A program made the position numbers and the translations under genes. From contig RPFO01000253.1 in NCBI GenBank assembly GCA_009746045.1, forward strand, positions 4,089,832 through 4,153,831: DNA of 64,000 nt, written 5' to 3'. The DNA is from Mesostigma viride. Its lineage: Eukaryota; Streptophyta; Mesostigmatophyceae; Mesostigmatales; Mesostigmataceae. Within the stretch, counting starts at the first letter, position 1; each line of letters starts with the position of its first letter. Positions 17,008 to 42,624 of the stretch are shown piece after piece. The notes under the pieces were generated by a model that was given only the letters and a program-made list of their open reading frames with translations, was not told where the DNA came from and did not search any database.

Positions 17008-17090
17008 ACCCACACTCCGCCTCTTAGACGACACCGAGGTCAACTACCCTACTTCAGGCCGCTTCAAGCTGCTCGGCAGTTGGCTTCCCG
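17008..17090 (+). pseudogene. LINE A copy 1, segment left of the DNA transposon
   Basis: It matches 35588-35670 of the full-length LINE A (cacactccgcctcttagacg ... cagttggcttcccg). The match stops at the left end of the 11 kb transposon and resumes at 28104 at the right end with ccgactgcgagg, so this LINE A copy was the target of the insertion. Confidence 0.9.
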
Positions 17091-17123
17091 GAGCTGGTGG
17101 CCATGAGTTTGCTCAGTTGGCCA
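17091..17123 (+). repeat. Left terminal inverted repeat (33 bp)
   Basis: It is a perfect inverted match of 28071-28103. Just inside, at 17129-17145, is gtcaagtgagcaaactc, which pairs with the GAGTTTGCTC inside the terminal repeat and gives a short subterminal hairpin. Confidence 0.92.
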
Positions 17124-17530
17124 TGTCTGTCAAGTGAGCAAACTCAAAGTATGCATATTTTGCGTCCTACGTGTCAATTTATACATGTCTTGGGTTATTT
17201 TATGGGTTGTCATGCATTGTGGCGGAGTTTGGTACCTAGTGGGGGTTGGAAACACACCCCTTGACTATAGAGACCCACTAAAGCCCCATAAATCATGCAA
17301 TTTGCACAGTCACACCATGTGGACATGAAAGTGCATGTTTTATTCTAGTTAGGTTTATCATTAGTTAAGGCTTATATTATGCATAAACACCAAAGATAAT
17401 CGATAAACAACAAATTGTTGAATTTCTTCCCACACTGCAATAACATATTTGACAAAAACAGATCACTTATGCCAACCAAGTGATGCAACCCACAGATGGA
17501 ACTTAAACCGTGACCATTTGGTTCACTAGA

Positions 17531-20500
17531 CTAGTCCACAGACGTATCAGATTCAGATGTGGCACTGTCCTCAGCACTGGGCTCCTCATCCTCAGACTCT
17601 TCCCCCTCACTTGCCTGATCGCTGCCCGGGGAATCGACGGGCGCGCTACGGCGGCACCCCCTAGTTAGCTGCTGCCTACGCTCAGGGGGGGCTGGAGGGG
17701 CCACACGCTCGTCTCTAGCTGTATTACTCAAGAGCTCCTGCCCGGCATTGTGGTCCGTGGCTAGAAGCTCGGGCAGCACAGCACCTGGGCAAGAACAAAG
17801 GACTGCTTGTAGATCATCATACGGAAGCACGTCCTTCTCACCGTCATCCCACAGCACGGCGGCCAAGCGAGAGCCCGCGTCTATTGCTGTTACCCTACCG
17901 TGAAATCTTTTTTTGCCAGCTCCCACAGCATACCATCTACAGATGGGAGTGGACACCATGATACCATCCGCTACCCGCTTCTCCCAAGCCTCGCTGTTCC
18001 TAGCCCTAGCAGCTGCTGCATTCTTGTACTCTGCAAAACAAAGTCTGTCATCCTTCACTACTTGTTGCAGGGCATCTACAGTGGCTGCAGCCAGGCACCC
18101 CCCCTTTGTAAGCTTTACGGTGTTTGGCTTCGCCTTGGTGGGCCCTGGCCACGACGAAAGGAGCACGTCCCCCTTGGGCACCGCATACACATGGACGGGC
18201 AATGATGATGACACCGGTACGCCGGCAGATGATGGATGCCACCTGAGCCACTTGGCAGCGTAGTGATCAGCATGAAAACATTCTACCAAGACGGTCGTGT
18301 CCCCTGGCGCAGGCGTCTTGTGGACTACACCGTACAGAGCAGGTGTCCACGTAAACTTGGTGTTGCCTTCAGCCAAACAAGGATGGGCTACAATAACTGG
18401 GTGCCCCTCTTCAAGGCCTACAGACGCTTGGGCTGCAGCTATGTCGAAGGCTATGGCCCTATTCGCCTCATCCCACTGCGCCTGCGTAAAGCCCGCATGT
18501 CGTACAGAAGGCACCAACGGCTCTACAGCAGCCGCGATGGCCAAAGCCAGTTCCTCCTCCTCGTATGTTGCTGCTGGCAGAGGCGTCGGCGCACTGCGCG
18601 GGGAAGGGCGGGGCCATTCAGGAGGCCTCCACTCCGCGGGGACAGTGTCAATGCCCTTGGGGACCTTTGGCCAAAATTCTGCCCACCGGATCAACCGGTT
18701 CACCTTTGTCTTCGCGTCGACGAAATACTGAGCCCACACGGTACCATGCAGCCCGCCCACGAATAGCTTGATTCTTGGGATGTTCTCCTGCATGCATGGG
18801 CAGAGCAGTGCGACATGGACAAGGAGTACTTAACTCTTAAACCGTTCTCGCGCCGTTTTCGTGGTACCAGTTGAAGTCCTACCACTCTAACGGACTGAGT
18901 TTGTGCGCCTACCAGGCGCCGCGCCAATAATAATTTAACGGTCAAACCTGGGGGGATCGAAAGATCTAGACGTCAGCTTTCCGTAGAGCACTTCAGACCG
19001 TACTTTGGACACCTGGCCAGGGAGATATGCTTGAGCAAAGTTAGGGGGGTACCATGGTCCAACGGGACCGACGTGCAGGAAAAATATTGACGCGCACGGC
19101 TATGGCGGTGCAAAGAACTGACTGGTACGAGAGAATGGCTTGACGTATTGGACTCAAATTTTGTAGGCATGATTCTTAGATCCTAAAAATTGAATATCCC
19201 TAGCCATGGAAGGTTCGGAGGTACGTAGATGGGTCTCGGGGTGCTGGTCGGCGCAGCAAATGACGTTAGCGGCCAGGCAGTGATGGTGCGAGTGCTGCAT
19301 GTTGCTAGGCCGAATTTTCCCAGACATCTGCGCATCGATCAATTTAGTACGTTGTTCCCAACAAGATTGATTAGCATTGGCAGCCAGTAAAGGCTCGAGG
19401 CTACGTCCATTACTCTGGCGTGCTGGCTCGCGCAAGAAAGGTAATCTGCTGTACCGACCTGGTACGTTCTAGCCTCCAAGCGTGTTCTATTAGCCGTATA
19501 TAGTTGTATTATCGTTTAAAGCTAATATCAGAGTTATTACCGAGGGGTTGTGATTGTCTTTTTGTTGTTTTGCTGCCTCTACGCATCGGCTTGTCATGGT
19601 TGGGGAATACCATCAGGTCAAGCAGATTTTGGACCATGTTTGGTCACCGTTAGCTGATGCTGCAACGGAAATAGCGAGGTAACGATTGTTATCGGTCACT
19701 AATATGGTAACGTTGATTACCCAATGCTTTTCCTTGGTCAAGCACCCCGAGACAAGTTCTTTTCTGACCAGTGTTAGGCGTGGCTTCTTGTTTTGCTGGC
19801 CAACGCCCACCTTCTTGTTTTGCATCCATTGCATGTGAAAATCGTGGAGATACCCATAACCTGTTTGCATGGGAGCATTATACCAACTTATTCCTATTGT
19901 TTTATTCATTGTTTCCAAGAACATAGAGGTGTTTTGTCGTTCATTGGGTGTGTTAGTGATGTAGCTCCTTGCCACCCTTTGTACGCGCGCTTTAGGCCTT
20001 GATATGAGCCTTACACCTATTGTATAGCATGAGCTTGTGTCTTATATGCTGGACATGGTGTTGGCATTGCTTTTGTGGCCATCTAGTTGTTGTTTTGTGC
20101 CACTTTGGGATAGGAAACCTATACGGCAGTTCTAGCAACCGTCCCAAAATAGCTTGCACCGTTATAACGGTCTGAGCTATTTTGGGCTGTTTGCTAGATA
20201 GCATGTGCAGTTCTGTGACATTTCATGCTGTGAATGCATTGATGGCATGCCTGTGATTCTAATAAACTGCCTTTAAAAGGCCAGGGCCACCTGATTTGTG
20301 TAAATGGTCTATAATGCATTATATATGTCTCCAACCCCATGTGCACCGTACCCCCCTGGGGGGGGTGCTATTTATAGCATGCATGGGGCATAGATATGTG
20401 ACCAACCAAATTTCCCAAACATTATTTGATATAAAAGCATGCTTGGTTCCAAGGGTGGGCCAGAAAATGTTATTTGGCTAGTTACTCTCAGGCGCACAAA

Positions 20501-23141
20501 GATACCCAAACTCAGTCCGTTTCGGTGGTTCCAGTCCAGACGGTTGAAGAGTTAAGTCGAGCATATCCGAGGCCAAATTTAGATAAGGTTGCACCAATGG
20601 ACAAAGAATACATCAAATAACCAAGAGGTATGACGAGTAATGAAAGCAAACTTGGTAGCAAATGCTTACAGCTTCACCATGATTCAAATTACTCACCTCC
20701 AGGTATCGCAGGTTGAGACCAGCCAGCAGGGGCCCTGCGGTCGCGCAAGGAATGTCCGGATCAAACACGCGAATGCCATACAGGGGACGCCCCTGCTGAT
20801 CATAGGCGAGAACACGCCCTGAGAGTACACCATCTGGCCGCGGCTGCGTGACGATGTAGCACTGGTAGCTCATCCACACCTCTGGGTTGCCTTGCACTTT
20901 CCGAAATGAGGTGTGGTGGCAGCGAGCAGCCTTGCCAGTCCGCGTAGGGAGACCATCTTCAGAGTCAGCGCTTGGAGGCATGTAGTCTAGTGCCATGCTC
21001 CAGCCAGCTAAGTTTGGTTCCTTCCGGTGCAGCAGCCAGGCCGCGACATCATACACGCAGCCTAAAACCTTCACCCGGGTCCCAGCTGGAGTCTTGGCGC
21101 TCATGTCTTCAGCTGCCACCACGTCCGCATGCTCAAAAGCGCTCAAGATGGCATCAAAGAAGTCGTCAGGCGCACCGTAGACAACCACGTCCTTGCCACG
21201 TCCACTCTTGGCCACCGTTGCCCACAAGTGGCCGAAGCGCTGGTCAGGATCAACGTGAGAATGCCCACGCATCAACCTGTGGATGTGAACCTTGTCGAAG
21301 CGGCCATCCTCCACCAACTTGGCTGCCCAGAGCAATACGGTGTCATTCCTGTTCTCGCTCCCTCCGTCCAGCTGAAAATGGGCTTCCGTTGGACGAGGCT
21401 GGCTGGCAGCCTCCCACGACTTGGCCGCCTCCCAGTCAGCCAACATGCACTCTAGCATCGTGCACGTCACGCTGCCAGACTGCCCATGTACCTCCACCCA
21501 TGGCCACACGGGAAAAAACGTCGAGGTGCCACCCAATATGATGCCGCAATACAAACTGAATTCAAGGCATTTAGCCCGATTCTGCTCCCAGCCCTTAGGT
21601 GCATTAGCTACCAGGGGTGACAAGGTCTTGGTGCTGTCAATCTTGTCTAAGCAGAAAAGCAAGATTAGCCCCTTGATCGCCAGGCGGCACAGCCTCGCGT
21701 ACTCACGTCTTTCGCGGCGGACCAAAGCCATGTGCTTCCGGCGCTCCAGGTCATAGCGTTTTCGCCGCTCTCCAGAACCGGCACCTCGGCGCAGCGTCCG
21801 CAAAAGAACGCACGTCTGGCAGACACCCACATTCCTCGTGTACTCCAGCATGCGAATCTTAGGACTACCTGGCCAATAGTTTCCAAGGGCTACTTGCTTC
21901 CAGCATTTCATAAAGGGACTGTAGCTGAGACATAGAGACTTGAACAGGGCCTCATCTTCCCCGCATTCTAACCTGAGGTCCTCCTTGTACTCGTGTTCCC
22001 AGCATTGCTTCATATTCAAGTCACCCAAGAGAATCTCGTTGGCCGCTCTCGCAGGGTCGTAGTCCCCACATTCCTTTGCGAAGTCCATCTGCCACGCTGC
22101 ACACCACTCCTTCGCCGAAGAGCCGCCCGGATGCTTGGCGACATCGGCCAGGTCCTCCTCAGTGAGCCCATGATAATCCAAGACATCCCCATCCACCGGC
22201 ATGGAGAAACTGGCCGCCGCCTGTGCAAGGTAAGTGCGCCAAACCGAATGCTGAATGCCCAACAGCTGCCGCATGGCCCGATGACAGCATTTGACCTCGA
22301 TGATGTCGTTCCCCACAGGCACGTCCAGAATAAGTGGCACGTTGACGTCATAGGATTTTTGGCTCCCCCCGGGAGCTGCAAAAGTCCAACCAACAAGCAC
22401 CCCCAAAGCAAAGCGGAAAACATGTTATTCAACATAACACGTACCGACATGATAGCTTGGCCCCTAGTTAGCTGGCACCCTTACTAGCCATAACAGCATG
22501 TGTACTAGTTATTTAGGTCTCTTTTACTTACTACTCAGCCGTAACAACGAAACGTCCCAGCAAAACAGAAAATTTCGCCATTACGACGCCTAGAAAAACG
22601 TGTAAGGGCTGAAAAAGCCGGATGGCGTTCGTGCTCGGAGTAGTGGCCTTTCACAGATTGGAAGCATTGCAAAGAAAATCAATGCAAGAACATGCTTGAC
22701 ATACGCAGAAAATGGCGTTCTAATTTACTGGACACCTGGAACAATGCAAGATTCAAAGCCATAGGATCAGGGTCTTCCATGGCCCAGCTACTAGGGGCGC
22801 GGATGTCTATAACTAGGGTACCAGTTTACAACATAACGAAAAAAGAACGAACCTGGTTCCTTTATTACGATATGCTGAACCCCTGCCCTTTGAAGCAGCG
22901 ACGTCACGAAGTCTTGACGCAAGCTCTGGTTGTGTGCTAGCCAGAATAGTTGCCTAGCCGCAGGCGGAACCGACACTAGTCTAATGGCATGCCGGGGATC
23001 TCGCAAGCACCTTGCACTACACTTGCAATCTATGGATAGATCTTCATTGATAGATCTTGGGTCAATACGAGATGCGTATGTGACCAATGCTGAGCGCCTT
23101 CCGGGCTTTGCAGCACGAAGATTCTGGGCTGATTCATCCAT
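17531..23141 (-). CDS. Putative DDE-type transposase, three exons, 1,074 aa
   Basis: The exons are 23141-22853, 22375-20697 and 18787-17531. Each junction is GT-AG and the phases agree (1, then 0), giving 3,225 bp. Exon 1 has a Cys cluster (DCKCSARCL) and then a basic helical stretch. Exon 2 has IIEVKCCHRAMRQLLGIQHS, a Cys-rich knuckle (GVCQTCVLL) and a basic region. It also has a likely RNase-H-like core: FCLDKIDSTKTLSPL, YCGIILGG, FQLDGGSENRN and MRGHSHVDPDQRFGHLW. Exon 3 holds a Tudor-like segment (FHGRVTAIDAGSRLAAVLWD followed by DGEKDVLPYDDLQ) and a long Asp/Glu/Ser tail. The Asp residues of KID and LDGGSEN and the acidic residues of HVDPDQ are the best catalytic candidates; this is inference. 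Intron 2 is about 1.9 kb. The gene is intact, so the element may have been active recently. Confidence 0.75.
22376..22852 (-). other. Transposase intron 1
   Basis: The donor is CCAG|GTTCGT at 22853/22852 and the acceptor is TTTTGCAG|CT at 22376/22375. No other feature was seen in it. Confidence 0.55.
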
Positions 23142-23378
23142 GATAGTTGCTTATGATGCCTGATGAGGATGCCATTCATTATCGAAATAAATACTGAGCA
23201 CGCCGCGGTTGCAAGGCGGCAACCGCGGCGTGCCCTTGCTCATGGTGGCGACGAATCCTTTCTGGCCTGCGCTGGCTGTCTCCTTGATCTGGATCGGCTG
23301 TGCCGCATGCAGGCTGCTGAGGCCGGGTTCCCCGGCTATGAAGGTCGTAGCCAGCCGCCAGGTCGCAGGCTCGTAGCC

Positions 23379-23930
23379 CATTCTGTAGCCGGGCTATAGC
23401 CAGGCTACCGACCAGGCTATAGCCTGCTCTTGCCCAAGCCATTTTCCCTGGTTATTGTACGGTGCTGAGCTATGATTGGGCTACGAACGGTTACACTAGA
23501 GACCTGAACTTTGTAACCGTTCGTAGCCCAATCGTAGCTAAGCACCCTTTTTTGTAACCGTTCGTAGCCCAATCATAGCTCAGCACCTCTTTTGTAACCG
23601 TTCGTAGCCGGGCTATAGCCAGGCTACCGACCAGGCTATAGCCTGCTCTTGCCCAAGCCATTTTCTCTGGTTATTGTACGGTGCTGAGCTATGATTGGGC
23701 TACGAACGGTTACAAAAAAGGGTGCTGAGCTATGATTGGGCTACGAACGGTTACACTAGAGACCTGAACTTTGTAACCGTTCGTAGCCCAATCGTAGCTA
23801 AGCACCCTTTTTTGTAACCGTTCGTAGCCCAATCATAGCTCAGCACCGTACAATAACCAGGGAAAATGGCTTGGGCAAGAGCAGGCTATAGCCTGGTCGG
23901 TAGCCTGGCTATAGCCCGGCTACAGAATGG
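23379..23930. repeat. Large nested palindrome between the two divergent transposon genes
   Basis: The outer arms are about 113 bp (23379-23491 and about 23818-23930) and match as reverse complements, starting ccattctgtagcc and ending ggctacagaatgg. Inside, the strings ggctacgaacggttac and its complement gtaaccgttcgtagcc alternate several times, around two copies of a core with actagagacctgaacttt. The 10 bp palindrome ggctatagcc recurs throughout. Further partial units lie at 23931-24060. The whole lies between the transposase start (23141) and the accessory gene start (24217), so it could be a bidirectional regulator or a transposase-binding array. Confidence 0.88.
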
Positions 23931-24216
23931 CCTGGTCGGTAGCCTGGCTATAGCGCATACCGGTAGCCTCTCTGTAGCATAGATGATCGACCTGGACTTG
24001 GACATTTTGGCGCTAAACAGAAAATGGCTGGGCTACGACCTGGCTATAGACACGTGCCTGCCAGCCCTACCGGCCGGCTACCAGGCGCACACAGCCAGAG
24101 ACGCGCGCGTCATTTAAATTTCGACACGGCTATAGACAGCAATGGGCTCTGCACAGGCGCACACACGACAGACATCGCGGACGCACACACGACAGACATC
24201 GCGGACGCTAGTTTCC

Positions 24217-27200
24217 ATGGAGGACATTCCCCTGCAATTATGTGGGGGTTGTCCTGAGTTGACAGGAGCTGCCCATAAGTGCACATGCGGTGTGTGGATG
24301 CACGGGATTTGTGGCATCGGCCAGGGAGAAGAGGGGTATGGCCAAGTGAGGATCTGCACGAAATGCCAGCAGGGGGGCGAGACTAAAAAACAGGACAAGC
24401 CACAGCCGGCGGGCCCCACTAAAGCCGCCTGTGATGAGGATAAAGACGATGACAAAGAGGAAGCTGAGGACATGGCCCTCCTAGCCGGCGAGCAGGCCAT
24501 ACTAGAAGGGGATGGCCTGGACGATGTAGACGCCTACTTGTTAGGCAAGACGGGCAGAACCGGCAAGCACGTGATGGATGCCACGGGCAAAAAGCAGGTC
24601 GGTAAGCGGACGGAATACTGTATGACATGCTCTTGTTCTTCCCTTCCTCCTTGGGGATGCAAATCATCTTATCGCTGCCCTGTTTTGAGAAATCTGTATG
24701 AGCATTGCTACAGCGCCTTTGGGATGCAAATCATCTTATTGCTGCCCTGATTTGAGAAATCTGTATGAGAAACGCTACAGCGCCTGGCAAGCCAAAAAAA
24801 AAAATTTCCCCTCGCGGGGGGCGCTGGAAAACGCTCCGCTACGCCCGCCCAAAGGCGGCGGGCTCCGCTTTGCCTTTGCCGTTTTCCAGCGCCCCCCGCG
24901 AGGGTAAATTTTTTTTTTTGGCTTGCCAGGCACAGTTCTTGTCGTTGCATTACTAAAAGGAGTTAGGGTGTCATGGGTTGTCCGGCGTTTGTATAAACCC
25001 CCTCAAAATTAGGGTTGGTGGTTTAACAACACGTCATGGTATATTTTGCTGCTGCTTCGCGACATGTTTACGCAGGAGGGCGCTGGGGGGGCGCCAGTTG
25101 ATCGCCATCGCCATGGTTATAGCGACGGCGACGGCGATGGCGATGGCGATGGCGATGGCGATGGCGATGGCGATGGCGATGGCCATGGCGATGGCGATAG
25201 CGACACCGACGGCGGGGGCGACGGCGATGGCGATGGTGGGGGCGGCGGTGGGCGCGGCAGCGGGGGCAACGGCGTGGGTGACGGCGGGGGAGAGGGCGGG
25301 GGCGACGGCGGGGGCGACGGCGGGGGCGACAGCCGGGGGGGGGCCGCGGCGATGGCGGGGGCGACAGCGGGGGGGGTGCCGCGGCGACGGCGGGGGGACG
25401 GCCGGGGCGACGGCGGGGGTGACGGCGGGGGTGACGGCGGGGGCGAGGGGGGGGCGACGGCGAGGGCGACAGCGGGGGCGATGGCGGGGGGGCGACGGCG
25501 GGGGGGCCAGCGGGGGCGACGGTGGCACGGAAGGCAAGGATGGTAGCCACAGCAGTCACGGCAGTGGGATGGGGAATGCACGGCGTCCGGCTAATATCAA
25601 CCAGCCGCCGCTTCCATCCGGGTCAACGCCGACCTTGCAGCCGGGCTGCATCTTTTCAACGAGCAAGCCCCACGCAACCTTCGTGGCAATCTCGGTGATT
25701 CCAAGCAAGGGCGCCTTTATGGCAAAAACTGTCCTTGCCCTTGCCAAGAACATCAGAGTCCGCAGGAGCGATAAGCCTATCATCGATGGCTCTGCTCAGG
25801 TAGTGTTTTCCAAATTGCCAATCGGCAAACCATTCAACCAACTCATGGAGCCTAATGGTTCCCCGTACACCTTGCGGGGGCCATCCTGGCAGGCCACGAT
25901 GGCGGTGGCAACGCCACTTTTGGCACCACTGCAGGTGGATGCCTTCGCCGCGTACCCAGCGACCTACTGCCGGGTGGGATCCGACTTTCTTCCATTTCCT
26001 TACGACGAGGAGGAGGACAAGCAACCCAGGCGCGGGTCGGCGCGTTTCGGGAAGGCCTCGCCCACGGCGAGCTTGTTGCCTGAAAAGATGGCACCGCCCA
26101 CGCCCACGTCGACCCGGAAGACTGCACAGCTGGCGGGGCCCTCGCCCACGTCTAGCGGGAAGACTCCCTCCAAGAGATCAACCAGGGCAGCCTTAGCAGA
26201 CCTCACAAATGTGCCAAAGGATGTGCCAGAAGTCAAGCCCGCGCCAAAGAAACCCAAACTGGAAGTTCACCCAGTTCAGAGAAATCATGCCGGGCCATGT
26301 GAGGACATGGTTACCAGCAAGGTTCTGGACGCGCTTGAGAATCTATCTGTAGCTTTTAAAGACCAAGCCCAGCAAGTCGCCCAGCAAGTTGTGGCGGCAC
26401 TAGCCTTGAAGAGTGCAAGTGCCTCCAAGGTCGAGCACAGGAACGACAAGGACATGGGCACGGCAGACATGGTTGCCGATGGGATGGGCACCAGCAGTGA
26501 CACAGACGGCACTGGCAAGGGATGCACCACAGGCATGGGCGGTGGCATGGGTGGCGCTAGCATGGGTGGCGCTGGCATGGGTGGTGCTGGCATGGGCGGC
26601 GCTGGCATGGGTGGCGCGGGCATGGGCGGCGGTGGCATGGGTGGCGCTGGCATGGGTGGTGCTGGCATGGGCGGCGCTGGCATGGGTGGCGCTGGCATGG
26701 GTGGCGCTGGCATGGGCGGCGCTTGCATGGGTGGCGCTGGCATGGGTGGCGCTGGCATGGGCGGCGGTGCCATGGGTGGCGCTGGCATGGGTGGCGCTGG
26801 CATGGGCGGCGCTGCCATGGGTGGCGCTGGCATGGGTGGCGCTGGCATGGGCGGCGCTGCCATGGGTGGCGCTGGCATGGGTGGCGCTGGCATGGGCGGC
26901 GCTGCCATGGGTGGCGCGGGCACGGGCGGCGTTGGCATGGGCATGGACGGTGGTATGGGCATGGGCATGGGCGGTGGCATGGGCATGGGCGGTGGCATGG
27001 GCATGGGCATGGGCGGTGCCATGGGCGGTGCCATGGGCATGGGCGGTGCCATGGGCATGGGTGGTGGCATGGGCATGGGCATGGGCGGTGGCATGGGCGG
27101 TGCCATGGGCATGGGCATGGGCATGGGTGGTGGCATGGGCATGGGTGGTGCCATGGGCATGGGCATGGGCGGTGGCATGGGCATGGGCATGGGCGGTGGC

Positions 27201-27713
27201 ATGGGCATGGGCATGGGCGGTGCCATGGGCATGGGTGGTGGCATGGGCATGGCTGGCATGGGTGGCGCTGGCATGGGTGGCGCTGGCATGGGCATGGCTG
27301 GCATGGGCGGCGGTGGGATGGGCATGGGCATGGCTGGCATGGGTGGTGGCATGGGCATGGGCGGTGGTGGCATGGGCATGGGCGGTGGTGGCATGGGCAT
27401 GGGCGGTGGTGGCATGGGCATGGGCGGTGGTGGCATGGGCATGGGCGGTGGTGGCATGGGCATGGGCGGTGGTGGCATGGGCATGGGCGGTGGTGGCATG
27501 GGCATGGGCGGTGGTGGCATGGGCATGGGCGGTGGTGGCATGGGCATGGGCGGTGGTGGCATGGGCATGGGCGGCGGCATGGGCATGGCTGGCATGGGTG
27601 GTGGCATGGGCATGGGCATGGGCATGGGCATAGGCGGAATGGGAGGCACAGCCGAGCCTAGCTTGAACCTTAATCGCCTTGTTGGGCTTCATCTCATGGG
27701 CGTTCTTCGTTAG
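24217..27713 (+). CDS. Transposon accessory protein: Cys/His finger plus Gly-Met repeats
   Basis: The first exon starts at ATG 24217 ([17 protein letters not shown]). It encodes a Cys/His module of pattern C-x2-C-x8-C-x-C-x4-H-x2-C-x13-C-x2-C, resembling a PHD or other treble-clef finger, then an acidic stretch, and ends near a donor (cag|gtcg|gtaagc) at about 24598-24603. The 3' exon, from about 25560, is open to the stop at 27713. It has a unique region ([20 protein letters not shown] ... [20 protein letters not shown]), a Ser/Thr/Lys/Pro linker ([20 protein letters not shown]), a helix ([20 protein letters not shown]), and then about 370 residues of Gly-Met-Ala repeats. What lies between (a foldback and GCGATG repeats) is intron or low-complexity coding; I cannot tell which. 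Function is unknown. DNA binding plus self-association is a reasonable guess. Confidence 0.6.
24654..24785 (+). repeat. 66 bp direct tandem duplication
   Basis: The unit gggatgcaaatcatcttat...ctgtatgag...gctacagcgcct occurs twice, starting at about 24654 and 24720. The copies differ at about five sites. It lies in the intron of the accessory gene, directly left of the foldback. Confidence 0.8.
24782..24931. repeat. 150 bp foldback (MITE-like) element
   Basis: The arms gcctggcaagcc + A-run + tttcccctcgcggggggcgc and their reverse complement enclose a GC-rich loop. The arms are about 55 bp with one or two mismatches, including facing A11/T11 runs. Similar flanks acagc and acagt could be a degenerate target duplication. 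No coding sequence is present. Confidence 0.8.
25115..25545 (+). repeat. GCGATG / GGGGGCGACGGC microsatellite block
   Basis: An almost pure run of the hexamer ggcgat at 25117-25195 passes into imperfect gggggcgacggc units up to about 25530. Several frames are open through it (Gly-Asp, Ala-Met, Ala-Thr), which is expected of any such repeat, so openness here is not evidence of coding. Confidence 0.85.
26530..27640 (+). repeat. Coding Gly-Met-Ala repeat tract
   Basis: Three sub-blocks are visible. 26536-26940 has units ggcatgggtggcgct (GMGGA). 26941-27240 has gggcatgggcggtggc mixtures (GMGMGGG). 27350-27580 has a near-perfect 21 bp unit giving MGMGGGG. The frame is kept through all length changes, and unique coding sequence flanks both sides. 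Confidence 0.85.
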
Positions 27714-27918
27714 ATTGTGACATTGGTATTGTAACGACAAAAAAGTAACGTGGTGGAGCTGCCGTCTTATTGAACTTTCATGATTTTTAGTGGAACTGCC
27801 GTCTTAACGATTTATAATTATTATGGTGCATGTCATGACTACAATTTGCATCGTTTTTCTGTGGAAACTAAACATGTCAAAGCTTCGTGCACAAGTGGCT
27901 ACAAACCATACCTGGCTA

Positions 27919-27923
27919 GGGGG

Positions 27924-27970
<47 letters not shown>
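27919..27970 (+). repeat. Poly-G tract of about 45 bases
   Basis: A G run interrupted by a single A near its start lies about 200 bp after the accessory gene stop and about 80 bp from the right end of the transposon. Its length in the assembly is probably approximate. Confidence 0.85.
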
Positions 27971-28070
27971 CGCGACACTTAACTTTGGGGAACACTTGAG
28001 GGAGGTAGGTGGTATTATTCTATTGATTTCACACAAAGTTGGAATACTGGCCGTCAAGTGAGCAAACTCT

Positions 28071-28103
28071 TGGCCAACTGAGCAAACTCATGGCCACCAG
28101 CTC
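28071..28103 (-). repeat. Right terminal inverted repeat (33 bp)
   Basis: It is a perfect inverted match of 17091-17123. The adjoining inner bases 28053-28070 repeat gtcaagtgagcaaactct, so the motif GAGCAAACTC occurs twice at this end, once in each of two neighbouring blocks. Confidence 0.92.
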
Positions 28104-28344
28104 CCGACTGCGAGGACAACCTGACGACACGGAATCATCGGCATGGCGTGGGCGCACCTCCATGACCACCACCGCTGGTGGAGCAACCCCACCCTACCCC
28201 GGATCGTCAAGCGTGACCTCTCCAAGGTCGTCACTCTGACGATCCTGGTCAACCTACGGCGCCGAGACCTGGACACTCACGCAGGAGCTGGAGCAACGAC
28301 TCGACGGCACCGTCACCAAGATGCTGCGCAAGGGCCGCCCTTAA
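28104..28344 (+). pseudogene. LINE A copy 1, middle segment
   Basis: It continues copy 1 from the transposon's right end (matches about 35665-35890) and is cut at 28344 by a LINE B insertion. It carries frame-breaking changes such as ggaatcatcgg and ctggtcaacctac. It ends with aagggccgcccttaa, the sequence duplicated by the LINE B insertion. Confidence 0.88.
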
Positions 28345-30326
28345 TTAATTAATTAATTAAAATCATAGCTCCGTGGGGAGCATATGTAACACATAGCCCT
28401 GAGAAAGGGGCATCTATGGGTTTGTAATACAATCAGGGCGACAACCTGCAGGTGTAGGATGTACAACTATCACCTGCTCTGGGTGCACTAGGTGCACCTG
28501 CACCTCCATGGTGGTTCATGCCTCCTAAACAAGCACAGGCACCCAGGGGGGGCTTGAGGAGAGGGCCTAGAAGGCCTGCATGACATATGGGGTGGAAGGT
28601 ATGTGGCTAGGCTATAGCTGGGGTACACATGGCCTCTCAGCAGAGAGTAACTCCCTGCATGGGCAAAGCATGACTCGAAATTGCTACGGCTATTGCAAGG
28701 GCGGGTGTGGGCCCGTCACGTAGGCATACATGGCCACGTCACTAAGCTTTCTAGGCTACACTACTGCTATATATTCCCTAGGCTGGGGTGGCTGGGGTGG
28801 CTGGGGTGGCTGGGGCGGCAGGGGTCGCCTGCCAGGGCTTGTGGGCGACGTAGATGTCCGCCCCCTTCCAGTAGACCGGCTTCTGCCCCGCCTTCTGCCG
28901 AAGCTGGAGGTAGGTCGGCCATAGCTCCCGTCGCCGTTGTTGCTGCGTCAAGGTCAAGTCGTCGTCCAGCGTGTAGGCGGTCCCCCCAAGCCGCTTGCGA
29001 CACTTGAGGAACTCCATCTTATCCGCCATGGTGTCAAAGGTGAGGAGCAAGGGGGAGGGGCCGGCCTTACCCCGCGAGCGGGGAAGGCGGGTCACCCCCC
29101 GCGGCTTGCCCTTACCAGTGATAGCCATGGGGACAAGGATTTTGTTCTCAAACGCCAGGGCAAGGGTCTCGGAGGTCTCGTCCTGCAGCGGGTCGAAGTG
29201 CTTGACTATGACGTTAAGGCTGCGCTTGGCGAGCTCGGCCTCCTCGCGGAGGTCCAGCGTCTGCTGCTTAAGCTGGGCGGCGACGGCGGAGGTGGTGGAG
29301 GTGGCGTGCTGCTTAAGCATGTCCGCCCAGGTCGGGATGCCGGGAGGAGCATCGCCGGCAGGGCCAGCAGGGGCTGGCCGAGCGGCGATGTCCTTCACCG
29401 CCTGGGCAGTGATGCCGGCGGTGTTCTGCAAGCATTCGATGGCTATGGCATTGTCCTGCAGGCGCTTGTCGATGGCGAGGAGCTGGGCGGTGAGGGCGTC
29501 GGTTGTGGTGGAGGTGGAGGCGAGGAGCTTGGAGGTGGCGGTGGTGGTGGAGGAGAGGAGGGGAAGCTCGGCAGCCAGCGTGCCGCCCATGGCCGCCACA
29601 TCTGCGGCCAGGGGTGTCACGTGCTGTTCGATGGCCTTGTGGATGATGGAGCGAATTTCGGAGGTGGAGGGGGGGGCCCAGATCTCGGCGACAGAGCGCC
29701 CGAGGAGGCAGCAGAGGGCGAGGAGCTGAAGGCGGGGCGGGAGTAGCGGGACCCGCGATCCGGGTCAAAAAAATCACCGCGGGTAGGCGGAATGATGCGA
29801 CCTTGGACGTAAAAGTACTTGCACAGGGCAAGAAGCGAGGTGCGCGTCCCGAAGAACACGGCGTTCATAAACTGGATGGGAGCTGCTTGGCCGTGTGTCC
29901 ACCAGGCAGCTGATTTGGCGTCAAAGTCGATTTCTTTCCAGCCCGGCTCGTCAGGGGGCGGATCCTCAGGGCGACTGCGTTTGGGCTCAGGCGATGCAGA
30001 GGGCGAGGCAAGTCCGTGAGGGGGCTGGGCAACCACCAGTGCACGACTAGTGTCACCGTTGCCTTCCGGGCTTGAGGGCGAATCTGCTGCCGAAGCTGCA
30101 GACGGACTTTCATTGCCGAGCGCAGCCGCCAGGCTGCGTTGCGGCAAGGGGCGTTTGCTCGTCATATATTGCGTTATAGCTTCTGAAAATTATATCAGCA
30201 TGTGCGTCTAAGAAAGACGAAGCGATTGTGATATTCACAGCTGAATTCGGGGCTCAAACGTGAAAGTTATGAGCGCCGACAGCCATGGCTACCTCGTGGC
30301 TCGTGGCTCGTGAGCTCGTGGCTCTC
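28345..30326 (-). mobile_element. LINE B insertion in LINE A, ORF1-only, 15 bp TSD
   Basis: The element reads right to left: 5' leader 30326-30166, ORF1 30165-28778, 3' untranslated region to about 28365, and a tail of TTAA units at 28341-28360. The string AAGGGCCGCCCTTAA is present at both edges (28330-28344 and 30327-30341). It occurs once, uninterrupted, in another LINE A copy at 37475-37489, which shows the empty site. No reverse-transcriptase sequence is present, and none is linked to any other LINE B copy here. Confidence 0.88.
28778..30165 (-). pseudogene. LINE B ORF1 protein (L1-type), one frameshift
   Basis: The N-terminal part starts MTSKRPLPQRSLAAALGNES at 30165. The C-terminal part is in another frame and includes LLGRSVAEIWAPPSTSEIRS, a helical coiled-coil region, and LLLTFDTMADKMEFLKCRK. 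It then has LDDDLTLTQQQRRRELWPTY and IYVAHKPWQATPAAPATP, ending at 28778. The last part matches the C-terminal RNA-binding domain of L1 ORF1p (R-x-E-x-W-P...LR). The shift between the two frames lies at about 29700-29760; the copy at 5447-5704 reads through that point. The product would be an RNA-binding, trimer-forming chaperone. Here it is most likely inactive. Confidence 0.75.
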
Positions 30327-30870
30327 AAGGGCCGCCCTTAACATCCCCTTTGGTTTGCACATTAGTAATGAGGACTTGTACGCTGATTTGCCCTATGTTT
30401 CCCACATTATTAGGCCCAGGCGCCTGGGCCTAGCCGGGCACCTGGCCCACACAGATCAGGTAGACACATCAGATAGACTAGCTGGCACCAAGCCCGCCCA
30501 GCCTAGGCGATATGTCCTCACCTGGACTGCCCCCGGCCACGCGCGGCAGGGCCGCCACCCGTGGACTTTTCGTGATAGACTCGATGATTCGGCATGGACA
30601 TGTGCTACACTAGACGTGACGGGCTCACCCCCGGGCAGCCTCCTAAGTAAGTAAGTAAGTACAGGCAGCCTCCTGGTTTGTCTGTAATATGGAGGCAGAT
30701 GGTGCGCTAGGATATACATATGGCAAGTAGTGATGAAGGAGACCACCCCCAAGTCTGTGGGGGCTCCGCGTGTGACCAAGTATGGCATTCATAGCGATTC
30801 GGGCCGAGGTGCCCACAACCCTGTAACTAGGACCTAGATAGCTTACACCATCCATTCCTACCATGGACTA
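30327..30870 (+). pseudogene. LINE A copy 1, 3' segment
   Basis: It resumes copy 1 after the LINE B insertion (cccttaacatcccctttggt) and runs to the 3' end near ttacaccatccattcc. Near 30643-30665 there is a small taag/taagtaag expansion with a duplicated ggcagcctcct. It lacks the TA insertion found in the full-length copy (gatcaggtagacac). Its end lies about 35 bp from the 5' leader of the next LINE A. Confidence 0.85.
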
Positions 30871-30904
30871 GTCTACACGATATGAGCAAAACTGGTGACG
30901 GAAT

Positions 30905-31240
30905 GCAATATACGAGAATGCTCATAACTTTTTACTCCGGCCATGAAATTTCATCGGGTTGGTTGCATTAGACTCGTCTGTTGAAGACGAACACGCTGAT
31001 ATAGTTTTCTACAGCTATCGCTCAATATTTCCGAAGATACCGGCACCGCCCTGCCCAGCAAATATCGCTGTTGCAATATACGAGAATGCTCATAACTTTC
31101 GACTCCGGTCATGAAATTTCATCGGATTGGTTGCATTAGACTCGTCTTTTGAAGACGAACACGCTGATATCATTTTCTACAGCTATCGCTCAATATTTCC
31201 GAAGATACCGGCACCGCCCTGCCCAGCAAATATCGCTGTT
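30905..31240 (+). repeat. LINE A 5' leader: two 168 bp tandem monomers
   Basis: Both monomers start gcaatatacgagaatgctca (30905 and 31073) and end gcaaatatcgctgtt. They differ at about seven sites. Tandem 5' monomers act as promoters in some other LINEs (for example mouse L1); that role is inferred here. The motif gaagacgaacacgctgatat is also present, diverged, in the LINE B leader. Confidence 0.88.
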
Positions 31241-31252
31241 TTTCAGCTCGAT

Positions 31253-32722
31253 ATGGCGGAATACGACTCATCCCAGCAATCACAAGCGTCCGCGGCCCTG
31301 CACCAACTCGCTGATGACGCCATGGCGTCATTGGAAACACCCTTGCACGCTATGCCGGACGCCACTGTCAGCATCCAGCCGCTCCACTCCACCGCTCCGC
31401 CGAACAGCGACCCTGCCATGGATACCCGCGAGGAGGCCTTTTCTGCCGAGGAAGCTGCCGCATTTTTACCTGGCAAATGGCCAGGCCTTAACGCCATCAT
31501 GCGCCTGTCCCGAGCTGCCGCCCTCACCATCCTGCACCTGGCTGCCGAGAAAAAGTGCGAGATCCGGGACTGCAACCAACAGGTTACCCACCTGTCGGAC
31601 TTTCTCCACGACGACCCCGACGACACTGACCTCTGCCTCGCAGTCTGGTGGACGTGCTCCCGTCTTTCCGACAGCGCCCTTGAGCGCTTTGTCATGGCCT
31701 CTCTGGACCTGGGAGCCGACCCCACTGTTGCGGCCGCCATCAACATCACCGCCAAGCAAGTCGCCAATACCTGCTTCGATCGCCTCCCTCCCCTCCTCAA
31801 CGCTGCCCTCAACCCTGTCCACAACCACCTCGCCACCCACCACGCCCATTCCTCACACGCCGACACCTCCATCCACTCCGCCATCACCCACATTGCAGCA
31901 GGGCAGCAGCAGCAGCAGCAGCTCCTCCACCAGCTCCAGCAACAACTTGCCGCCTCCATAACTCCTGCCAAGACCACCTATGCCGCCACGCTTCAGAACC
32001 CTACGGAGCTCATCAACGAAATCAAAACAGCCGTCAAGGCCAGCACAAGGGATGCTATGCACGAACCCATTCGCTCATGCAGTATTGTGGTACGTGGCGT
32101 CCCCTCGAACGTCAACGATGCACGCCTGGGCACCTACCTCCGGGGCGACCCCTTCCTGGGGAAGCTCGGCGTGGCCCAAAGCGTCGTCATCAAAACGGCA
32201 CGACGGCTCGGCGGCCCCACCGCCCCTGTCTTGGTGGAATTCCACCGCAAGGAGGACAAACTGCAGGTGCAGAAGGCCCGCCGGAACCTCCACGATACCC
32301 AACTGAGCATCGACGATTACTATACCCCGGAGCAGCTTGAGGCCCGGGCTGCCGCTTTGAACCGGCCGGAGGTCCACGAGGCTCGGGCAGCCAAGCAGGC
32401 CAACCCGCAACTACGGTGCAGCATCTATGCCCGCCTCTTTAATGGCGTCTTCATCGTCCGCATTAACGGCCAGGACCTTCCTCCAATGACGGCGACCCCC
32501 ATGGATACCGCCGTGCCAGCGCCCCAGCCCCCTGCTCGGCCCCCGCCGTCACCGCCATCGCCACCGGCATCGACGGTCACCTGCTCCCCAGCACGTGTGG
32601 GGATCCGCCGGGGCAACTTCAGCTCAGGTATGGCTGCCAGGCTTGGCCGTCCCCCTAATAAATTCGTTCGCTTTGCACCTGAGCCGGAGCCCGCGCTGCG
32701 AACCCTTCTCTCCTATCAATGA
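31253..32722 (+). CDS. LINE A ORF1 protein, 489 aa
   Basis: The chosen start is ATG 31253 (MAEYDSSQQSQASAALHQLA), the first Met after the second leader monomer. Residues about 60-200 are helical and Ala/Leu-rich. A Gln run (GQQQQQQLLHQLQQQL) marks a likely coiled coil near residue 220. About residues 275-400 read CSIVVRGVPSNVNDARLGTY, GGPTAPVLVEFHRKEDKLQV and LSIDDYYTPEQLEARAAALN, consistent with the RRM and C-terminal domains of L1-type ORF1 proteins. The tail is Pro-rich. The stop codon TGA overlaps the ORF2 start as ATGA. The product would bind element RNA in the ribonucleoprotein. The frame is intact. Confidence 0.82.
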   Translation: MAEYDSSQQSQASAALHQLADDAMASLETPLHAMPDATVSIQPLHSTAPPNSDPAMDTREEAFSAEEAAAFLPGKWPGLNAIMRLSRAAALTILHLAAEKKCEIRDCNQQVTHLSDFLHDDPDDTDLCLAVWWTCSRLSDSALERFVMASLDLGADPTVAAAINITAKQVANTCFDRLPPLLNAALNPVHNHLATHHAHSSHADTSIHSAITHIAAGQQQQQQLLHQLQQQLAASITPAKTTYAATLQNPTELINEIKTAVKASTRDAMHEPIRSCSIVVRGVPSNVNDARLGTYLRGDPFLGKLGVAQSVVIKTARRLGGPTAPVLVEFHRKEDKLQVQKARRNLHDTQLSIDDYYTPEQLEARAAALNRPEVHEARAAKQANPQLRCSIYARLFNGVFIVRINGQDLPPMTATPMDTAVPAPQPPARPPPSPPSPPASTVTCSPARVGIRRGNFSSGMAARLGRPPNKFVRFAPEPEPALRTLLSYQ

Positions 32723-35700
32723 CGACGCTCGCGGCCCCGCGGCTCCGCGGCTCTAGCAGTGGGATCTGCCTAACTCCCCTTCCCGCCCCTTTGCCTTCGC
32801 AGCCCTCGGGCTGTCGGAGAGAGAGCAACGGGTCGGCAGTGAGCCAGGTTCGCCCCGCCTCGCGCGGCCGCCTCCGAAACCTCCTCAGACTGCACGCATT
32901 TCTTATGCGTGCAGACGCAGACTCATTCTACCTGGCCACCCGAGCCAACCGTCGGCGTCGCCTCGACGCGTTGGCAGGAAGAATCGAAACGGTGATTGAA
33001 AGCATAAGTCCCCAACCCGCCCCCCCTACCCCACCACCTCCACCCCCACCCCCATCACCACCCTGCTCCATCTCCGCCCCCACCCCCGCCTGCACCCCCC
33101 TTTTCGGTCAACGCGCGCCCTTGGTCATCGCCACCTTCAACGCCCGCACGCTCCAGCCCGACGCTGACCGCTGTCACTGCCTGCGCAGTGACGACTGTCA
33201 GTGCCATCGAGTCTCCAATCTTATTGGTTTCTGCATCGACAATAATATCGCCATCCTGGGAATCCAAGAACACAGGCGCACTGCATCGGCCCGCGGATCA
33301 ACTGCCCTTGTTGCTGACGACATCGACGGCTGGCGGTTCTACTACGGAGGCGGCGACGGCACCGGGAACGGGGGCGTCGGTCTCCTCTGCTCCCCGCTCG
33401 CCGTACGCCACATGGGCGAACCCCAGCTGGTCAACGCTCGGCTCCTCGTGGCCACTTTTCATTCGATGGAGGGCCACTCGACCTACGCCCTGACGGTGGG
33501 CGTTGGTTACGCACCCCACTCCGGCCACCCAGAACAAGACCGCAAGGACTTCTTTGCAGCGCTGGAGAACCTGGCGAACGGCATCCCTGGTCGCAACTAC
33601 CTCGCTCTGCTGCTGGACGCCAACGCCACGCTACCACCGGGTACTGGCGGATGTCAGCACGCCCCCAACGGTACGGTCTCCAATGCCAACACTGAACTTT
33701 TTGCTGATTTGCTTACGACATGCGATTTGGTCACTGCCAACACCCGCTTTCCACATAGTCCAGATGCTTTGGTCACACACACCTCGCCAACTGGCACTGA
33801 ACGCTGCATTGACTATGTTGTAATGCGCAAGCGTCATCAAGGATCTGTACTAGCTGCTCGCTCGCATGTGATCCCCCTGGTGCGCTCCGATCATCGCATC
33901 GTCACCGCCCGCATCCGCCTGCGATTCCCCTCGCCCTTTCGTAAGCACGTGGCACCACCTGATTTGCGCACACTTCAGTTGCTCGAGAAATCTGACGACG
34001 CTCTGGAGGACTTCCCTGAAAAACGCGCCCACAAGCGCGCCGCAGAGGCGTTCGTCGACGCGCTGGACATCCCGGCCAGCCACGCCCAGCTGTTCGCTGC
34101 CGGCCCGGCATCGGCCCTTCGGCACCTCGCTGACAAGCTGCCCGCGGCCGGGGCCCTACTGCCCCCCCGCCGCCCGCCCCGCTTCACCAGCCTGCACCGG
34201 CTCCCCGCCGTCATCCAGGCCCGGCAAGCCCTGCGCGACAACAGCGACCCCGCCCGCTACGCCCGCCTCAAAGCCGATTACCACTCGGCCATCCGGCAGG
34301 CGACCAAGGAGCAGGAGGACCTTCATGTCCGCGAGTACTTCGCCCACCTCAAGGACCAGCACGGCAAGTACGCCTGGACCCGCCTGCGTCACGCCCAACG
34401 GCCCGCCGGCGGCGCGCAGCCGGCGCCGCGGACGCTCTCTGGCTCACCGCAGCAGCAGCTCGACCAGTGGTATTCCTCCCAGTCCCGGCTGCTCGGCGCC
34501 CCCCCGCCGCCTCCGCCGCTTGGCCCTCTGGCGGCCGCACGCCTGGCAGTAGCACCGGCGGACGTCCCTGCGCCGCCCACGCCGCCCGCCGCTGAGCAGG
34601 ACTACACGTACCCAGCCCTGACGGAACCCCTGGCCGACCCCAACGAGCTCCCGCCGTTCACCGAGCTCGAGCTGAGCACCGCCGCCAAGCAACTCCGCTT
34701 CTATGCCGCCGTTGGACCTGACCAGCTCCCAGCCCCGGTGATTAAGCTGACGGCGCTCACGGGGTTCCTGCTTGACGTCTGCAACCGGATCCTGCTTGCC
34801 GACGCGCCGCCGATTCCTGAGTGGCAGCACAGCTACCGTATTATGCTGTACAAAAACAAAGGTTCCCCTGACGACCCCGCCAACTACAGAGGAGTCTGCA
34901 TCCAGAGCGCCGCACTTAAGTTGTTCATGCGCATGATCCTCAACCGCCTTCGTTCTGCTCTCGACTGTCACCTTGGGGAAAGTCAAATGGGCTTCCGTCC
35001 TGGGCGCAACACCGTCATGGCCATCTTCGTCGCGCGTCGCCTCTTCGAGGAAATCGCTCTCCTGCAACCTGGTGAGTTTCCCGCCATCCTGATCTTCGTC
35101 GACTTCATCAAGGCTTTTGATTCTGTCCTCTGGGACGCTCTATGGGCTGTACTTGCTCGCGCTCGCGTCCCCACTCCCCTGATTACCGTCATCCGCACGC
35201 TGTATGAGGGGTCGACCACTTCGGTGCGCACTCAACACGGCATTACCCCGCCATGCCCACTGCAGACCGGCGTCTGGCAGGGTTGCGTCCTGTCGCCGTA
35301 CCTGTTTATTATTGTAGTGGATTATGTTATGCGCCAGGCACGTGCTCGCTTTGCTAGCATTGCAGGCCGTGCCCCTGGCCTAGCGATCACGAACGAGCTT
35401 GGGGAAGGGGGGCCGACTAACAAGCAGAATTTACTAGCTGACCTCATTTATGCCGACGACATCACGCTCATCGAGAAGCCGGAGTCTGCCCAACTTTGGC
35501 TGGACTGCCTGGCGCTCGAGGCTCGGGCGGTTGGTCTAGAAATCAGCCCCAAAACGGAGGCCCTGGCCCTCGGCATGGCAGGGCCCCCACCCACACTCCG
35601 CCTCTTAGACGATGCCGAGGTCAACTACCCTCCTTCAGGCCGCTTCAAGCTGCTCGGCAGTTGGCTTCCCGACTGCGAGGACGACATGACGACACGGATC

Positions 35701-36021
35701 GGCATGGCGTGGGCGCACCTCCATGACCACCGCCGCTGGTGGAGCAACCCCGCCCTACCCCAGATCGTCAAGCGTGACCTCTTCAAGGTCGTCATTCTGA
35801 CGATCCTGACCTACGGCGCCGAGACGTGGACACTGACGCAGGAGCTGGAGCAACGACTCGACGGCGCCGTCACCAAGATGCTGCGCCAGGCCCTTAACAT
35901 CCCCCTTGGTTTGCACATTAGTAATGAGGATTTGTACGCTGATTTGCCCTATGTTTCCCACATTATTAGGCACAGGCGCCTGGGCCTAGCCGGGCACCTG
36001 GCCCGCACAGATCAGGTATAG
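32719..36021 (+). CDS. LINE A ORF2: AP-like endonuclease and reverse transcriptase, 3' truncated by frameshift
   Basis: The ORF has 1,100 residues. An endonuclease/exonuclease/phosphatase domain covers about 135-410, with TFNARTL, IQEHRR, LLLDANATLP, IDYVV and SDHRIV. The reverse transcriptase covers about 690-960, with YKNKGSPDDPANYRGVCI, GFRPGRNT, FVDFIKAFDSVLWD, QGCVLSPYLF and LIYADDITLI (YADD catalytic box). After the RT come LTYGAETWTLT, MLRQALNIPLG and RRLGLAGHLARTDQV. The frame stops there because this copy has gatcaggtaTAgatac. Copies without the TA read on as VDTSDRLAGTKPAQPGRYVL to a stop equivalent to 36358. The start overlaps the ORF1 stop by ATGA, suggesting translation by re-initiation. 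The first ~120 residues are Pro-rich and poorly conserved. Confidence 0.9.
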   Translation: MTTLAAPRLRGSSSGICLTPLPAPLPSQPSGCRRESNGSAVSQVRPASRGRLRNLLRLHAFLMRADADSFYLATRANRRRRLDALAGRIETVIESISPQPAPPTPPPPPPPPSPPCSISAPTPACTPLFGQRAPLVIATFNARTLQPDADRCHCLRSDDCQCHRVSNLIGFCIDNNIAILGIQEHRRTASARGSTALVADDIDGWRFYYGGGDGTGNGGVGLLCSPLAVRHMGEPQLVNARLLVATFHSMEGHSTYALTVGVGYAPHSGHPEQDRKDFFAALENLANGIPGRNYLALLLDANATLPPGTGGCQHAPNGTVSNANTELFADLLTTCDLVTANTRFPHSPDALVTHTSPTGTERCIDYVVMRKRHQGSVLAARSHVIPLVRSDHRIVTARIRLRFPSPFRKHVAPPDLRTLQLLEKSDDALEDFPEKRAHKRAAEAFVDALDIPASHAQLFAAGPASALRHLADKLPAAGALLPPRRPPRFTSLHRLPAVIQARQALRDNSDPARYARLKADYHSAIRQATKEQEDLHVREYFAHLKDQHGKYAWTRLRHAQRPAGGAQPAPRTLSGSPQQQLDQWYSSQSRLLGAPPPPPPLGPLAAARLAVAPADVPAPPTPPAAEQDYTYPALTEPLADPNELPPFTELELSTAAKQLRFYAAVGPDQLPAPVIKLTALTGFLLDVCNRILLADAPPIPEWQHSYRIMLYKNKGSPDDPANYRGVCIQSAALKLFMRMILNRLRSALDCHLGESQMGFRPGRNTVMAIFVARRLFEEIALLQPGEFPAILIFVDFIKAFDSVLWDALWAVLARARVPTPLITVIRTLYEGSTTSVRTQHGITPPCPLQTGVWQGCVLSPYLFIIVVDYVMRQARARFASIAGRAPGLAITNELGEGGPTNKQNLLADLIYADDITLIEKPESAQLWLDCLALEARAVGLEISPKTEALALGMAGPPPTLRLLDDAEVNYPPSGRFKLLGSWLPDCEDDMTTRIGMAWAHLHDHRRWWSNPALPQIVKRDLFKVVILTILTYGAETWTLTQELEQRLDGAVTKMLRQALNIPLGLHISNEDLYADLPYVSHIIRHRRLGLAGHLARTDQV

Positions 36022-36358
36022 ATACATCAGATAGACTAGCTGGCACCAAGCCCGCCCAGCCTGGGCGATATGTCCTCACTCTGGCGTGCCCCCGGCCGCG
36101 CGCGGCAGGGCCGCCACCCGTGGACTTTTCGTAATAGACTCGGCATGCATGGACATGTGCTACACTAGACGTGACGGGCTCATCCCCGGGCAGCCTCCTG
36201 GTTTGTCTGTAATATGGAGGCAGATGGTGCGCAAGGATAGATGGCAAGTAGTGATGAAGGAGACCACCCCCAAGCCTGTGGGGGCTCCGCGTGTGACCAA
36301 GTATGGCATTCATAGCGATTCGGGCCGCGGTGCCCACACCCCTGTAACTAGGACCTAG
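36022..36358 (+). pseudogene. ORF2 C-terminal extension, out of frame in this copy
   Basis: After the 2 bp insertion the remainder of ORF2 is still largely open in another frame (YTRRDGLIPGQPPGLSVIWR, RKDRWQVVMKETTPKPVGAP, HTPVTRT then stop). The same peptide is present in the reverse copy at 42927-42718. It shows that the family consensus protein is longer than 1,100 residues. Confidence 0.75.
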
Positions 36359-36368
36359 ATAGCTTATA

Positions 36369-36532
36369 CCATCCATTCCATCCCATGTTCCCCTCCCACT
36401 GAGGACTTATGCTCACGTGACGCAGTCACGTGTCTATTAATTAATTAATTCATCCATTCCATCCCATTTTCCCCTCCCACTGATGGAGGACTTATGCTCA
36501 TGTGACGCAGTCACGTGTCTTTTAATTAATTA
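36369..36532 (+). repeat. Duplicated LINE A 3' terminus with hairpin and TTAA tail
   Basis: The block catccattccatccca ... cacgtgtct + TTAA units occurs twice in tandem (36369-36449 and 36450-36532). Each has the inverted repeat CACGTGAC-GCA-GTCACGTG (the second has one change) followed by ttaattaatt. The same 3' block closes other LINE A copies. Confidence 0.88.
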
Positions 36533-37272
36533 ATAGATAATATTAGTAGATAATAATCGTCATGGCAATGACACGCAACCACTCACGGGGGCTGCTCCGT
36601 GCTGTTCGAGAAGTTTAACCCCATGAAGACAATCAAACAGTTGTGAGGGAGAGAAACGAGCGAAGAACAACCTCCATGGCCGAGGCTCGTCCCATTGAGC
36701 TCTTTCCAAAAGTGCTGCTGACGCAAGCAAATCCCGCGGCTGGTTCCCTTAAGCTATTTCCAAAAGTGCTGCTGACGCAAGCAAATCCCGCGCCATAGCA
36801 CTAGCTGTCAAACCTGGCTACGAGCGCGCCGCAAACTATGTGCGCATTTCCCAGCAATGTAGCAAATCGTGTGTGCTGCCAATCCTGCCTGCTTGCCACA
36901 ACACATTTCAGGCTTTAGCGCGCTCAGGCTATAAGCGACGCGTACACGTGCGCATCAATCAAATCAGTCTGCATGGCAGCAATACAATAATCGGATTACG
37001 CGCGACACTCAGTCATCATAACATAATGACTTCACCGTCCAATATCTACTGAACGGTAGACTGAACATACTACAAAAGTAAATATTCAGCCACAAGCGTC
37101 ATAGAGTTGGGTACTAGCCCCCGGCGCGGCGCTTCACACCAGCCGTTACCTACCCAGACTTAAACAAATCCAAGCCAAACGGCTGCCAAGGAACCAAACC
37201 AACGGAACTGAACCGTACGTAAATGATTCGGTGAAAAGCCGTTTCTCGAGTGCATGGACGTAAATGATGAAC
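36533..37272 (+). other. Unique spacer with a 36 bp direct repeat
   Basis: No gene is seen. The string tttccaaaagtgctgctgac gcaagcaaatcccgcg occurs at about 36705 and 36756 (51 bp period). The stretch separates the full-length LINE A from the next LINE A/LINE B cluster and may be original host DNA. Confidence 0.6.
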
Positions 37273-37770: not shown

Positions 37771-37778
37771 ATGGGCGC

Positions 37779-41029: not shown

Positions 41030-41090
41030 TCAGGGCTATGTGTTACATATGCTCCCCACGGAGCTATGATTTTAATTAATTAATTAATCC
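41030..41090 (+). pseudogene. Isolated LINE B 3' terminus (60 bp, plus strand)
   Basis: It reads ctcagggctatgtgttacat atgctccccacggagctatgat and then a TTAA tail: the terminal 60 bp of LINE B. It is joined head-to-head to the truncated minus-strand copy on its left, so the combined insertion has 3' tails at both ends. Confidence 0.8.
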
Positions 41091-41094
41091 ATTC

Positions 41095-42588: not shown

Positions 42589-42624
42589 ATAGGCCATATG
42601 GCATATGCCCCTTCTCAAGGGAAT

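Follow-up and report, generated by a model that had tools for sequence, protein, structure and literature searches.

The question raised by this locus is what kind of element occupies positions 17091 to 28103 of the window (the whole 64,000-nucleotide stretch of Mesostigma viride DNA analysed here, C667:4089832-4153831 in the 440-Mb genome searched), and which of its two genes moves it. The element is a complete DNA transposon of 11,013 bp with two genes, delimited by its inverted ends, by comparison with a LINE and by other copies. Its terminal inverted repeats are 33 bp long and lie at 17091-17123 (plus strand, starting GAGCTGGTGGCC) and 28071-28103 (minus strand). Pairing between the arms (17090-17123 with 28071-28104) is 100%; their outermost complementary pair consists of flank bases and is coincidental, and the true repeats are thus the 33 bp inside 17091-28103. 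A related LINE copy without the insertion is found on the minus strand (43480-43212) and is continuous across the insertion point, and comparison with this empty site gives CCG on each side of the transposon, at 17088-17090 and 28104-28106 (neither the transposon nor its target-site duplications are assigned a strand). The perfect 33-bp repeats and the 3-bp duplication against an uninterrupted LINE that were originally predicted are therefore both real. The ends were also said to be unlike those of CACTA elements, and this stands: the termini are GAG...CTC in the window element and in the copies read, instead of CAC...GTG. Motifs of the GAGTTTGCTCA type recur just inside the 33-bp ends.

Other copies were identified by their ends. 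With a left-end query of 77 bases, for which the best 40 of 58 candidates were scored, at least 17 matches (the window's own included) extend over its full length at no less than 91%, and the right-end query, for which the best 40 of 96 candidates were scored, has at least 12 matches identical over 79 bases, again including the window's own. Twenty end loci were read (L009-L028); L028 is a right end and the other 19 are left ends. Besides the window, 18 of the 19 left-end loci begin exactly GAG[CT]TGGTGGCC and adjoin unrelated flanks, and the remaining locus, L020, is damaged there. Two subfamilies are distinguished by end sequence, GAGCTGG and GAGTTGG. Three pairs of loci (L011/L015, L012/L014 and L013/L016) each represent a single site found on different contigs, which leaves 16 distinct sites, each counted once. 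Identical 3-bp flanks are seen at 9 of the 12 sites where both ends of a large element were read: the window (CCG), L009 (TAG), L010 (ATG), L011 (GGT), L017 (CTT), L018 (ACA), L021 (CTT), L023 (CAT) and L024 (TAA). The flanks are non-identical at L012 (CCG/CGG), L013 (ATT/GGA) and L020, with its damaged left end. This count excludes L019, L022, L025, L026 and L027, where the right end was not found, as well as L028. Element lengths range from 8.98 to 12.2 kb, with one outlier of ~18.9 kb (L018). When the short elements described below are included, 15 of the 20 sites with both ends read have identical 3-bp flanks of varied sequence and five do not, the chance of 15 such sites in 20 being ~1e-23 at 1/64 per site. 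Copies with other boundaries, which would have refuted the original interpretation, did not turn up among those read.

The predicted transposase gene is on the minus strand, divergent from the second gene, and encodes 1,074 amino acids in three exons: exon 1 (22853-23141, with the ATG at 23141), exon 2 (20697-22375), which carries the DUF7869 domain, and exon 3 (17531-18787). Alignments of four relatives with the protein begin at residues 1, 9, 15 and 39. Intron 1 lies at 22376-22852 and intron 2 at 18788-20696. The join of exons 2 and 3 is supported by an uninterrupted relative, L133, which reads through this point without an intron, its residues 516 and 515 mapping to 20697 and 18793, respectively. 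Intron 2 is long in the window copy because a 1.7-kb insertion is nested in it (18834-20551, no strand assigned), between TTAA at 18830-18833 and TTAA at 20552-20555. This insertion is a separate element and not part of the transposon proper; it has inverted ends CTCTT.../...AAGAG (CTCTT[AC]AACCGT) and is absent from all three copies compared (L048, L049 and L050), the empty site being read in L048.

The transposase exons are nearly unchanged in these three copies, which argues for recent movement. There are no changes at all in exons 1 and 2 of L048 and L049; in L050 the substitutions number three in exon 1 and nine in exon 3, and exon 2 is free of them. The element is thus young, as had been proposed, and its age is given as recent alone, since the substitutions between copies are too few for a rate. 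The copies vary in intactness, as L049 is one base short in exon 3 and L050 carries four extra bases in exon 2. The original prediction of an intact three-exon transposase holds for the three exons and the 1,074 residues, but not for the tail: compared with L048, L049 and L050, the window copy carries an additional base close to where exon 3 ends, which places its last ~50 residues in another frame. A Tudor-like stretch in exon 3 (residues 948-986) is weakly common to the window protein and to a protein from ENA (P0002), falling below the Pfam cut-off in both.

The assignment of this protein to DUF7869 (PF25273) was confirmed with an HMM search, in which the domain covers residues 374-484 with 40.2 bits against a gathering cut-off of 26 (E 3.6e-10). 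In the searched genome there are at least 150 matches to DUF7869 (the best 150 of 275 candidates), and the same profile search finds no match in 14 control genomes. Twenty of the 150 matches were taken as loci (L113-L132); all are of one family, represented in the alignment by L137. Six further stretches were read, of which L138 was omitted as a fragment of L137's family. The alignment thus consists of seven proteins: five stretches, exon 2 of the window and P0002, that is, six families of this genome and one ENA protein. DUF7869 is matched in all seven, and they are 26-55% identical pairwise, with 27-42% identity to the window protein in the core. With L135, homology extends far beyond the core (761 alignment columns, E 3e-92). 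The dN/dS ratio of L135 and L136 is ~0.28 at a dS of 1.3; for the window protein and L133, dS has reached saturation.

Among the 150 scored places, the DUF7869 genes form several divergent families, with many genes of identical open-frame length, which suggests recent spread. Ten genomic places share L133:1-219 alone, at 97-98%, and these may be shortened derivatives of the L133 family.

Four aspartates, and no glutamate, are invariant in the seven aligned proteins. They are found at positions 340, 433, 472 and 474 of the window protein (exon 2 residues 243, 336, 375 and 377, exon 2 beginning at protein residue 98), with the DDE-like spacing D(93)D(39)D, and are surrounded by the motifs hhhD, QxDGG[SG][ED]NxN and GH[ST]HxDxDQxFG. 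Cysteines at exon 2 residues 185 and 188 are also invariant. On inspection of the alignment, hydrophobic stretches stop at the first and second aspartates, as strands would. As the aspartates are invariant in such divergent proteins, the best reading of the sequences is that the DUF7869 protein is a DDE/D (RNase-H-like) enzyme. AlphaFold run on two-sequence alignments gave poor models (mean pLDDT 33.5 and 48.1), in which the region of the first aspartate comes out as a helix. The order of elements in the low-confidence model, strand-strand-helix-strand-D-helix-strand-GHSHVD, would fit part of the RNase-H core.

Foldseek with the low-confidence model found nothing at E 0.001, the top matches being mostly MPN/JAMM domains (best E 0.078). 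These insignificant matches, together with two invariant histidines in the GHxH motif of the seven proteins, are the points in favor of the core being another metal enzyme that cleaves DNA, either JAMM-like or phosphoesterase-like (cf. GH[ST]H). However, Foldseek matches of a low-confidence model weigh little. JAMM enzymes have a characteristic serine, and phosphoesterases have a DxH motif as well as GHxH, but neither the serine nor DxH is seen among the invariant columns. A metal enzyme of this other kind is highly improbable. No named transposase family in Pfam is matched by the seven proteins at E up to 10, a range in which the HMMER filters drop most weak matches, and the NCBIfam search also matches no named transposase. 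A two-row profile has no match among PDB sequences. With exon 2 alone, TAL-effector repeats were hit in the PDB over 24-27 residues (E 0.00015); no stretch passes by itself, and these hits are taken to be spurious.

The second gene is on the plus strand. Its first exon (24217 to ~24597) encodes a zinc finger, Znf_SCAND3 (Pfam E 1.7e-6, 28.4 bits against a cut-off of 27), and has a counterpart in the short elements. The 3' exon (25557-27713) has an approximate 5' limit, since many acceptors preserve the frame, and it carries a conserved domain (~25600-26000) followed by Gly/Met-rich repeats. The zinc finger alone is recognised in this protein by the Pfam scan, which finds no catalytic domain. 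Nested inverted repeats of up to 152 bp, 98% complementary, lie between the two divergent genes (23375-23933, no strand assigned) and have counterparts in three copies, in both orientations. The intron region of the second gene contains an inverted repeat of 57 bp that includes runs of A/T (24777-24936); close to it, two pieces (24624-24702 and 24716-24772) show 90-93% matches to the beginning of L133, a DUF7869 stretch.

Short elements of another group (family C), which have the second gene alone, are ~3.3 kb long and have ends similar to those of the window element (GAGTCGGTGGCC..., 88% over 49 bases at the left end) with a different interior. The left ends of eight copies are 99.8-100% identical over the first 1,000 bases. 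The zinc-finger frame is open in all eight, with L073 lacking one of its cysteines. One copy, read fully from L074 and L079, is 3,297 bp long with GCT on both sides and has the second gene only; a transposase query against the 11 kb read around it gives no transposase (best E 0.71). A further short copy, L142, has other ends, a length of 3,354 bp and a broken zinc-finger exon with no detectable domain. Including L142, identical 3-bp flanks are present at six of the eight short-element sites where both ends were read (L072 TGG, L074 GCT, L075 GAA, L077 CAC, L078 CAA and L142 AAA), and they differ at L073 (TCA/TGA) and L076 (TCT/TGA); in L071 the right end was not found. The family C protein is 57% identical to the second protein of the window in the zinc-finger exon and 45% in the domain, with dN/dS of ~0.24 and ~0.38, respectively, and dS near 1.5. 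These ratios show that the second gene has been under purifying selection since the window and family C genes split, although part of this selection may predate the loss of the transposase from family C.

The short elements bear directly on which gene encodes the transposase. If it were the second gene, or if this gene encoded the core that recognises the ends, the DUF7869 protein would be an accessory or passenger. Consistent with this, family C elements have similar ends and 3-bp duplications, the fully read copy carries the second gene only, and the eight copies are nearly identical with an open zinc-finger frame. However, the protein shows a zinc finger and no recognised catalytic domain, whereas the DUF7869 proteins of divergent families have invariant acidic residues. 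In addition, L142 is flanked by AAA despite its broken gene, suggesting that the second protein is unneeded in cis, unless L142 decayed after insertion. A transposase encoded by the second gene is highly improbable.

It is instead likely that the element is a two-gene cut-and-paste transposon whose transposase is the DUF7869 protein, an enzyme most likely of the DDE/D type; the second protein would be accessory, and elements with no gene but the second would move in trans. The transposase would recognise the 33-bp ends and the inner GAGTTTGCTCA-type motifs, and catalysis would proceed via Asp 340, 433 and 472 (or 474). The element would be excised and inserted into target DNA with a stagger of 3 bp, showing no strong sequence preference. 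The product of the second gene, with its zinc finger, conserved domain and Gly/Met-rich tail, would act as an accessory protein, and the second-gene-only elements would be mobilised by the transposase through the shared ends.

Pfam gives no function for DUF7869; in the window, a gene of this family is part of an element whose ends and target duplications are defined. Among the DUF7869 families, ends are known for that of the window, the others being known from protein stretches alone. The standing of the element relative to named superfamilies was judged by Pfam and NCBIfam domains, termini, duplications and descriptions. In CACTA elements, too, motifs recur inside the ends and there is a second gene; short terminal inverted repeats and a second gene are features of PIF/Harbinger; and DGGGSN is a motif of the Zator/ISAzo13 core. 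CACTA/EnSpm elements are thus like the window element in the recurring motifs and the second gene. They also make 3-bp duplications (as given in excerpts of PMC12730594), but they are disfavoured because the termini differ, and no CACTA transposase domain is matched. PIF/Harbinger (PHIS) is similar in its short repeats, second gene and short duplications (0-4 bp in excerpts of PMC10045372). However, the target triplets vary here, the zinc finger of the second protein is of another kind, and Harbinger is disfavoured because none of the seven proteins has a Pfam match to a Harbinger-type transposase domain at E up to 10. Kyakuja-Dileera-Zisupton (KDZ) elements differ in having duplications of 7-8 bp (excerpts of PMC12730594) as against 3 bp here.

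Duplications of 3 bp in Zator and of 3 or 4 bp in AcademX (both in excerpts of PMC10045372) are a further point of likeness. The window element nevertheless differs from Zator in its GHTHxDxDQ motif and in being a large two-gene element, and from Academ in that a scan of three protein pieces shows neither a nuclease nor a helicase domain. It is possible, rather than probable, that the element belongs, in diverged form, to a known Repbase 3-bp superfamily such as these, with the link missing in Pfam only. Besides the duplications, DGGSEN here is reminiscent of the Zator/ISAzo13 motif, a possible DGGxxN resemblance, but no ISAzo13-type domain or other Pfam transposase family is matched in any of the seven DUF7869 proteins, and the nuclease and helicase domains are not found in the pieces scanned. 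This affiliation would concern classification only and is compatible with the cut-and-paste mechanism. The chances are about even that the DUF7869 proteins serve as transposases in a superfamily of eukaryotic DNA transposons that is as yet undescribed, makes 3-bp duplications and has expanded greatly in Mesostigma, with satellites that lack a transposase and retain the accessory zinc-finger gene alone accompanying its two-gene members.

The relatives found by protein searches, each scoring the ~8,000 candidates that share most words, are P0002 from ENA and a pair of Mesostigma proteins. The latter, P0001 (100%) and P0003 (98%), are the near-identical ones, with identity taken over the aligned parts, and their label, jgi/Mesvir1, points to Mesostigma viride as the host. 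Scans of viral contigs and of prokaryote contigs give no real relative. Mesostigma genome papers describe abundant repeats (PMC6947507, PMC7027972), and the element is not named in the excerpts of either. No mention of DUF7869 or PF25273 was found in a body of literature that has no bioRxiv preprints and only a minor part of the papers behind subscription. If the preferred reading is correct, the DUF7869 family gains a concrete role with a testable anatomy of ends, duplications and recent copies. It would also account for a large set of repeated genes in the genome of this alga, an early-branching streptophyte; some of these genes appear in gene annotations (P0001 and P0003). The second-gene-only elements pose the question of why an element without a transposase keeps an accessory protein open.

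Beyond the right end of the transposon, the window contains a cluster of repeated pieces, direct and inverted and some of them LINE (28140-44487), within which two arms of 1,226 bp (34793-36018 and 43051-44276) match at 99%.
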